From positions 1 to 23,627 of the forward strand of contig JAISRY010000201.1 in the NCBI GenBank assembly GCA_031273385.1: DNA of 23,627 nt, read 5' to 3'. The first letter of the stretch is position 1. Each line of letters starts with the position of its first letter. The notes under the pieces are model-generated. The model did not search any database and was not told where the DNA came from. It worked only from the letters and a program-made list of their open reading frames with translations. Of this stretch, positions 20,104 to 22,025 are shown in pieces. Source of the stretch: Tannerellaceae bacterium (GTDB lineage Bacteria > Bacteroidota > Bacteroidia > Bacteroidales > Tannerellaceae). A program made the position numbers and the translations under genes.

Positions 20104-21003
20104 TTATTGCCAAAGGGGTTCGGTTTGCCAATTGGCGGGGAAACCCATTGCTTTGCTGTCGATAGTAGGATATTGCGCCAAGAGTGATTTTAATTTTTCA
20201 GTAAATGTATTGTTGGGCGAAACGGTAAAAAGCAGGTATTTGATGATGCAAATACGATAGTAAATACGTTTCATATCGGTAGTGGAACTGTCAATCCACG
20301 GGAAAACGGGATTTTTGAGCGGAGCGGGAATAAGCGGAATTTCCTTATTCCATGTCCGGTTATGATGTCCGCATAAATTTCTTAAATTGACCAGCGATAC
20401 AATCCACGAAGCAAAAACTGGCACGGAAAGGCCAAAATAGCCTACCACCCTCTTTTGGGTTGATTTACTTTTTAAGTTGTTGAAAGTACTACATAAAACG
20501 CCAAAAGGCACAATCTCGGCAATCATCCATGCAGGAGGATATGAGTCCGCATATTTGTTCTGGAAATGGATGATGAATTCCTCATTCGTTTTCTCCATTT
20601 CCGACTTGATAATAGCTAACCTCTTTGTGAAAATCGCCGGATTATTGAAATTATTGGAATCAGTCATCCAAAAAACATCACTCAAAACATCGGTAATCAA
20701 ATTACACATTGTGCTGCGAATGGCTACTTCAATTTTCTCAATTTCGTTGAAAAGCAAAATCCGCAATTTGCGATCGAAACGGTACATATCAAGAGCCATA
20801 TCAAAAGTTGCACTGTCTTTATAAAGGTGGTCTTCTTTCGGGTACTTCAACAATGGATACAAATAGGCGCTTAATCTGAAATAATTAATATTGGCAAGAT
20901 AACTGATTGCTTTTTGCTCATCGGCAATTGACAATCCACGTTTTTTTAGCAAAGGAATCAAATCCTGAGGAAGCGTACACGTTTTAGCGTAATTTACTTT
21001 CAT
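20104..21003 (-). CDS. Abi family protein (Abi_2; AbiD/AbiF-like)
   Basis: The protein has 299 residues and matches the Abi_2 family of phage abortive-infection proteins. The N-terminal signature is LKKRGLSIADEQKAISYL and NYFRLSAYLYPLL (19-52). The middle block is FDRKLRILLFNEIEKIEVAI (76-95), followed by PAWMIAEIVPFG. A HEPN-like R-x4-H motif is RNLCGHH (Arg208, His213), with NRTWN after it. HEPN proteins are often RNases, so it may act as a toxic RNase upon phage attack; that is inference from the family. The ATG at 21003 is preferred because a longer frame (to 21201) would translate the promoter repeats. A 14-codon frame overlaps this start as ATGA. Confidence 0.85.
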   Translation of the reverse strand: MKVNYAKTCTLPQDLIPLLKKRGLSIADEQKAISYLANINYFRLSAYLYPLLKYPKEDHLYKDSATFDMALDMYRFDRKLRILLFNEIEKIEVAIRSTMCNLITDVLSDVFWMTDSNNFNNPAIFTKRLAIIKSEMEKTNEEFIIHFQNKYADSYPPAWMIAEIVPFGVLCSTFNNLKSKSTQKRVVGYFGLSVPVFASWIVSLVNLRNLCGHHNRTWNKEIPLIPAPLKNPVFPWIDSSTTDMKRIYYRICIIKYLLFTVSPNNTFTEKLKSLLAQYPTIDSKAMGFPANWQTEPLWQ

Positions 21004-21041
21004 AAACGATATAAAATAAAACGCCCCGCCGATTTGAGCAT
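21000..21041 (-). CDS. Possible leader peptide of the Abi gene
   Basis: The short frame MLKSAGRFILYRL begins in the loop of the leader hairpin. Its TGA overlaps the Abi ATG (ATGA). The second, upstream cassette starts a similar peptide (MLKLAGRFILYQ...) from the equivalent ATG, with some silent differences. This is far too short to prove translation, but the overlap suggests coupling to the Abi start. Confidence 0.35.
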   Translation of the reverse strand: MLKSAGRFILYRL

Positions 21042-21071
21042 TGTGAAGAGGCTTGGCGGGTGCTGACGGGA

Positions 21072-21102
21072 CAAAGATAGAAACTATATTTGAATTACCA
21101 AA
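21072..21102 (-). promoter_or_regulatory. Proximal promoter of the Abi gene
   Basis: On the minus strand TTTG (21099-21102), exactly 19 nt, then TATCTTTG (21072-21079): a full-consensus Bacteroidetes promoter. The predicted leader before the Abi start is about 60 nt and contains the hairpin. Confidence 0.8.
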
Positions 21103-21198
21103 CTGTTTCTTTGTTTTTTCGTAAAAATAAATTGGTATAAAATAAAACGGCCCGCTAATTTGAGCATTGTGAAGAGGCTTCGCGGGCACTGTCGGGGG

Positions 21199-21229
21199 CA
21201 AAGATAGAAACTATATTTGAATTACCAAA
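21199..21229 (-). promoter_or_regulatory. Distal, duplicated promoter of the Abi gene
   Basis: This is identical in arrangement to the proximal one: TTTG (21226-21229), 19 nt, TATCTTTG (21199-21206) on the minus strand. Its transcript would cross both hairpins before reaching the Abi gene. Confidence 0.8.
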
Positions 21230-21353
21230 CTATTGGGTGCATTTTCAATTTGAATTGTACCCCTTCCCTCGCGCGGCGGGTTATTGTGTAATATGATATC
21301 TGTTTTTGTTTTCTGTAAACCGCAGAAAAGGGACAAAATCTGGCAAAATCTAC

Positions 21354-21722
21354 GCTCCCCAGGAAAGTTTGCGTTTTTTTGCCTTCACTCCTTCACCTTT
21401 CGTGCAATATGCTGATTTATAAAATGATGTGGTGAAGGGAGGGTGAAGGGAGGTGAAGGGAGGGTGAAACGGGGTACCGGGGATATCCAGGCGGGCTTAT
21501 TGTGTAATTTGGCAAACGACTGATCTTCGGGGCGGCAAGAGCGAATGTCAATTTATTATCGACAAATTTATACAATAAGATACAACTTATCTCTCAGATA
21601 CCCCGTTTTACTCTCCCTTCACCTCCCTTCACCCTCCCTTCACCACATTTAGGTATAAATCAGCATATTGCACGAAAGGTGAAGGAGTGAAGGCAAAAAA
21701 TGCAAAACTTTATTGGGGAGGC
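21354..21722. repeat. Long inverted repeat, MITE-like, 124-bp arms
   Basis: The left arm (21354-21476) and right arm (21599-21722) are imperfect reverse complements of about 124 bp around a 122-bp spacer with no gene. Inside each arm, GGTGAAGGGAG-type units repeat with a period of 10-11 bp. A separate short repeat (GCGGGttattgtgtaat type) occurs at 21276 and 21491. The stretch 21232-22068 has no convincing gene. A short non-autonomous element or a folded RNA are the two readings; flanking target duplications are not obvious to me. Confidence 0.8.
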
Positions 21723-21824: not shown

Positions 21825-21908
21825 CTCAATAGGACGGGAGCTATTTGAAACGGGACGGGAGCTATTTTTTTTCAGTCGGGAGCTATTTTTAGTCGGACGG
21901 GAGCTATT
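21825..21908. repeat. 21-bp tandem repeat, four copies
   Basis: Four units start at 21825, 21846, 21867 and 21888, each ending in CGGGAGCTATT with a variable first half. On the minus strand the 21-bp period would encode a repeated NSSRP heptad in an open frame (21660-21923), but that frame also crosses the long inverted repeat and has no other sign of being a gene. Confidence 0.85.
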
Positions 21909-21915
21909 TCCGGTT

Positions 21916-22025
21916 TTACACAATTGTATAGAGCCGGCTATACAACTGTCTTGTTCCGGCTACTCAGTTGTGTAGCCCGACCAAGACAATTGTGTAGTTC
22001 CGGCTACACTGTTGTGTGTTTCCGG
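21916..22025. repeat. 22-bp tandem repeat, five copies
   Basis: Units start at 21916, 21938, 21960, 21982 and 22004. Most end in CCGG and have a palindromic core like ACAATTGT. The period is not a multiple of three, so the array is not coding. It directly follows the 21-bp array and lies downstream of the M48-like gene. Confidence 0.85.

Follow-up and report, generated by a model that had tools for sequence, protein, structure and literature searches.

The abiF RNA family (Rfam RF03085) reportedly goes back to Weinberg et al. 2017. In Clostridioides difficile, the Abi_2 HEPN toxin AbiF-Cd is preceded by RCd22, a single transcript that carries two abiF motifs, is driven by one SigA promoter and has a separate terminator, with termination ahead of the gene (PMC12373285). 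In that account, RCd22 binds AbiF-Cd and neutralises it in cis and in trans; stem-breaking mutations abolish neutralisation and binding, compensated mutations do not, and premature termination at the RNA limits abiF-Cd transcription, with readthrough (PMC12373285). The structure 8vz6 shows the HEPN protein PbAbiF from a Prevotellaceae bacterium as a homodimer with two ncRNA copies, and its R210A+H215A variant is described as inactive (PMC12373285); the complex is credited to Zilberzwige-Tal et al. in PMC12373285 and PMC12737573. Type III toxin-antitoxin systems (ToxIN and kin) are summarised in the same source as an RNA antitoxin made of short tandem repeats before an RNase toxin, with a terminator between them (PMC12373285).

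The locus analysed here lies in a 23,627-nt stretch of Tannerellaceae DNA, hereafter the window, and is very probably an AbiF RNA-antitoxin/toxin locus with two tandem abiF RNA genes, in which the toxin would be restrained by RNA instead of a leader peptide. The toxin gene, abiF (20104..21003, minus strand, as are all features of the locus), encodes a 299-aa Abi_2/AbiD-F family protein and putative HEPN toxin, which matches Pfam Abi_2 at 167.7 bits (cut-off 25.6), PADLOC AbiD at 216.5 bits and PDB 8vz6 with an E-value of 4.5e-95 across residues 3-299. PbAbiF is thus a full-length homologue solved together with its ncRNA, and it has the same R....H motif: R208-N-L-C-G-H213 here aligns with R210...H215 of 8vz6, the HEPN catalytic motif. 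By analogy with these published relatives, the product would form a homodimer and exert toxicity as an RNase. The window has two separately promoted RNAs before the gene, and the comparison with PbAbiF covers the protein and its ncRNA complex rather than the RNA arrangement at its locus. The window differs from RCd22 in having a promoter sequence for each motif and a T run behind the stem itself. Compared with type III systems, it has a HEPN toxin with an abiF hairpin, and two separately promoted units instead of one repeat array. In the window's own genome, no second Abi_2 gene and no further abiF RNA was found (assembly 70% complete; 150 of 926 first-look RNA candidates scored).

Two cassettes spaced 126-127 nt lie upstream of abiF; in each, an exact Bacteroidota promoter is followed by a hairpin, whose 6-bp GC stem encloses a conserved loop with an ATG, and then by a T-rich tail. 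The first-pass annotation had called both promoters perfect, and the pattern TTTG-N19-TAnnTTTG indeed has two exact matches in the whole window against 0.05 expected by chance, a proximal one at 21072..21102 and a distal one at 21199..21229, both reading TTTG-N19-TATCTTTG. In Bacteroides, the primary sigma factor has the published consensus TAnnTTTG at -7 with TTTG near -33 (PMC7366714). The 33-nt block that holds the promoter shows no differences between the two copies, and a repeat finder reported a 40-nt promoter repeat at 95% identity and a 61-nt hairpin repeat at 89%. Of 47 RNAs compared, 43 have a strict TAnnTTTG box 10-12 nt ahead of the core, and 37 of these 43 also have the full TTTG further upstream.

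Both hairpins fold as had been described, with a 6-bp GC stem followed by a T-rich run. The proximal core (21024..21060) combines the stem CCCGCC/GGCGGG (-11.1 kcal/mol) with a 3-bp inner helix, AGC/GCU, which the Rfam structure line places within the "loop" and which takes in the G of the loop's start codon. The distal core (21150..21186) has the stem GCCCGC/GCGGGC (-11.4 kcal/mol), in which the inner pair is lost and an outer pair is gained with the use of 21187. Linked changes on both sides do keep 6 bp, as first proposed, by sliding the distal stem one register. The tails at 21010..21023 (proximal, a candidate terminator tail) and 21136..21149 (distal) each hold 9 T of 14; across 47 RNAs the mean is 9.0 and the minimum 7 T of 14, against a background T frequency of 0.28. 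Between the proximal stem and its T run stands GCG. A terminator scanner that accepts only loops of 3-8 nt reported neither hairpin. Taken singly, the folds are not significant (cores: z of -1.5 and -1.9; 68-nt pieces: z of -1.0 and -0.4); the evidence for structure comes from comparison.

Both hairpins are members of RF03085, scoring 58.4 bits (proximal) and 42.6 bits (distal) against a cut-off of 37, and the Abi_2 gene starts 20 nt past the proximal core. Apart from the separately promoted tandem pair, we found no difference from the family. A model built from 48 other RNAs with the window copies left out (R1) scored the two almost alike, 73.3 bits for the proximal copy (21018-21066) and 72.7 bits for the distal one (21144-21192); the lower Rfam score of the distal copy goes with its slid stem and not with decay. 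Covariation was assessed in an alignment of 48 RNAs, 42 of them distinct, from which the window was excluded (45 loci of the main set plus L092, L093 and L095; L086 was left out as too distant). Of its cells, 96.4% are paired, and 5 of 10 pairs (18 cells) show both-side changes. None of 500 shuffles was as high on these measures, and slid controls were at most 45% paired, so the check on stem covariation proposed by the first-pass annotation came out in favour of the outer stem. The number of further pair types was not above shuffles (179/500), and the alignment is silent on the inner helix because that helix never varies in it. The suggestion of a new control mode for Abi_2 proteins is not supported, as the RNA is already in Rfam and an antitoxin role has been published for relatives.

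Loci selected by their Abi protein numbered 52, of which 51 came from named genomes and one from a viral contig, and RF03085 was found at cut-off in 46 of them; L040, L057, L078, L080, L081 and L082 gave no match at that threshold. The main set of 46 loci used below consists of 45 RNA-Abi loci and the proximal copy of the window. It excludes L070, where the RNA match lies behind the matched gene and before the start of another AbiF, and the gene start of L032 was set by hand to the start after the RNA. The RNA-first sample comprised 29 loci at or above cut-off, some of them mutual repeats, from up to 395 genomes searched with the window excluded; by tblastn, an Abi relative lay within the fetched flanks in 20 of the 29 and none in 9. 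Taken together, these counts speak mostly against a generic dispersed repeat that sits beside unrelated genes. Three genomes (G326, G1134 and G1137) carry abiF RNA with no Abi_2 match, which together with the nine loci that have no Abi nearby shows that RNA and toxin are separable. Viral contigs yielded one Abi relative and no exact copy of the loop, and the matching plasmid and phage records (412 and 57) were all below 60% identity.

The solitary abiF RNAs are at L010 (1501-1537) and L029 (1260-1296) in G326, at L092 (1501-1537) in G1134, and at L096/L097 in G1137, the last with scores that only just reach the cut-off. The promoter box and the T tail are both present at L010 and L029, and the box is missing at L092. 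G326 has a third RNA, at L031, ahead of what we read as a cut-short AbiF start. The abiF RNAs in genomes with no Abi_2 match may be relics or solitary antidotes. A literature search combining AbiF with antitoxin, orphan and ncRNA returned no paper, a result that covers those terms and does not extend to whether abiF RNAs standing alone or in tandem are described elsewhere.

The loop ATG is most likely a by-product of the conserved letters of the RNA, and the peptide that it opens an accident of sequence. In the proximal copy it begins a short ORF, MLKSAGRFILYRL (21000..21041), whose TGA overlaps the Abi ATG as ATGA (21003-21000), and in the distal copy it opens MLKLAGRFILYQ...; the peptide starts and the overlap were both described correctly in the first-pass annotation. 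It had read them as a leader-peptide switch, in which ribosomes would initiate at the loop ATG, melt the hairpin and pass to the Abi start through ATGA. The ATG is indeed present in 45 of the 46 loci (absent in L072), yet its G belongs to the AGC/GCU helix of the RNA family, and the ATG could therefore persist through RNA constraint alone. The opening MLK-x-AGRF occurs in 22 of 45, or 30 if the 8 with a stop at x are included, because the RNA letters are conserved. One extra base follows the ATG in 7 of 46 RNAs, which keeps the hairpin and changes the peptide by a frame shift.

Neither the frame nor the length of the peptide is kept across the 46 loci. The loop-ATG ORF ends right after MLK in 10 loci and elsewhere before Abi in 4, abuts the Abi ATG in 1, has a stop overlapping that ATG in 11, continues in frame into Abi in 9 and overruns it out of frame in 10, the remaining locus having no loop ATG. 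Frames 0, 1 and 2 are represented 14, 8 and 22 times among the 44 placeable loci. Frame phase was also followed on an AbiF tree of 34 proteins (33 of the 45 loci and the window, from whole or near-whole readings with a few cut short; L032 was left off for the broken copy ahead of its gene). It flips about as often as at random, with 14 changes against 15.5 when shuffled, and 41 of 200 shuffles were as low. The overlap of the stop with the Abi ATG speaks for the switch: random phase predicts 6.0 such overlaps among 44 loci and 11 were counted, a modest excess, and on the tree they cluster, with 5 changes compared with 8.1 in shuffles (a value as low in 1 of 200). Of fifteen further loci tried, L016, L089 and L093 were not scorable, and the overlap was present in 4 of the other 12 (L005, L009, L011 and L012). 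L006, L013, L094 and L095 score exactly as counted loci and are probably repeats, which leaves 4 of 8 non-repeats; these overlaps were kept out of the main counts. Recounting the eight loci moved our estimate for the switch up slightly, from extremely unlikely to very unlikely, where it stays. Shared ancestry is the simplest reason for the excess, though not a proved one.

N-terminal extensions resembling translated abiF RNA occur in 12 of 13 longer AbiF proteins examined (P0004, P0005, P0010, P0011, P0015, P0019, P0043, P0044, P0048, P0075, P0100 and P0101). Depending on the frame they read PAKPL-NAQI, MLKSAGRF or ASLQC, and they are probably mis-called starts. Between them these hairpin-bearing extensions use all three frames, which also argues against a leader peptide in a fixed frame.

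In the RNA-antitoxin model that we favour, each RNA would be transcribed from its own promoter, start just upstream of its hairpin and tend to end in the T-rich tail. The nascent RNA would bind the AbiF HEPN RNase and keep it off cellular RNA, and occasional readthrough of the proximal RNA would give the abiF mRNA. The distal copy would act as a second full-strength antitoxin gene, independent of readthrough into the toxin gene. The RNA-protein binding, RNase toxicity, termination and readthrough proposed for the window locus follow the published relatives; expression of the distal copy, and its contribution of antitoxin, would go beyond direct precedent. As compensated stem changes are harmless in the C. 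difficile RNA, the slid-stem distal RNA may well neutralise the same AbiF.

The earlier idea of hairpin control thus survives in part: the hairpins accompany Abi genes and, by analogy with termination as described in C. difficile (PMC12373285), probably control them, and it is the leader-peptide switch that is not supported. The hairpins could in principle be pure cis attenuators, signal-sensing terminators with no antitoxin role in trans. Their T-rich tails would suit this, as would the termination and readthrough documented upstream of abiF-Cd (PMC12373285). However, a terminator needs no run of invariant loop letters, and the loop has one; moreover, the C. difficile abiF RNA is reported to act in trans and to bind the protein (PMC12373285). 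We therefore regard a purely attenuating role as extremely unlikely.

The tandem arrangement itself is rare in our samples. A model search of 94 other loci, some of them repeats, found no other head-to-tail abiF RNA pair within 300 nt, and Rfam searches with strict filters over four overlapping samples (393, 395, 395 and 60 genomes) showed such a pair, at that distance, in the window alone. Related arrangements do occur. L062 is ordered RNA-abi-RNA, L096/L097 has two RNA copies 1,450 nt apart, and at L032 a broken cassette, the 3' half of an RNA plus an abi start interrupted by a stop, stands before another RNA and gene. The extension of P0075, as inferred from its amino acids, reads as RNA, abi start, RNA, abi. 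At L070 (2501-4177), we also observed an AbiF gene, then a strong abiF RNA (75.2 bits), then the start of another AbiF, with only a weak RNA match (12.4 bits) before the first gene. Cassette doubling thus recurs, and the extra copy in the window has kept its promoter, RNA and tail. The separately promoted second RNA is a small variation on a known kind of system.

The distal copy, and it alone, could have a different history that is compatible with the RNA-antitoxin model for the rest of the locus: it may be the relic of a second AbiF cassette that lost its toxin gene, and not a functional antitoxin. Cassettes do accumulate and decay (L032, L070, L062 and P0075), and solitary abiF RNAs exist. 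However, the distal promoter, stem, loop and tail are all intact, and the R1 score is 72.7 against 73.3 bits for the proximal copy. An old relic is less expected, because some of these parts should then have been lost, and we consider this origin doubtful, if well within consideration. That the two copies share one promoter block without differences points to local duplication or conversion. The distal RNA is nearest to L039 and L069, with 3 differences, followed by L043 and L044 with 4, and the proximal RNA is nearest to L035 (1 difference), L033 and L034 (2). Stem types cluster on the 34-protein tree, with 6 changes against 9.5 and none of 200 shuffles as low. A derivation of the distal RNA from a sister AbiF clade was considered and is not upheld: L069, which has a distal-type RNA, carries an Abi fragment nearest to L035/L033, the window's own group.

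Further upstream, the window holds other repeats. A palindromic element of 366 nt (21355-21720), with 132-nt arms that are 87% complementary, lies just upstream of the abiF locus and is dispersed in its own genome, with 96 matches when both strands are counted (40 of 48 first-look candidates scored), many near full length at 68-79% identity; we take it for a short repeat of a mobile or REP/MITE-like type. Two short tandem arrays follow at 21835-22020, with 21-nt units (CGGGAGCTATTT...) and 22-nt units around ACAATTGTGTAG.

The AbiF toxin-antitoxin family is regarded as ancestral to Cas13 (PMC12737573). The window locus is now best explained by the documented RNA-antitoxin model instead of a leader peptide. 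A broader proposal has two parts, that the distal RNA, made regardless of events at the proximal terminator, uncouples antitoxin supply from toxin transcription as a reserve, and that solitary RNAs such as those at L010 and L029 are anti-addiction antidotes against incoming AbiF elements; that both hold together is unlikely on our present estimate. The slid-stem tandem pair and the solitary RNAs are natural test cases for the dose of antitoxin RNA that an AbiF requires, and for whether such an RNA may outlast its toxin.
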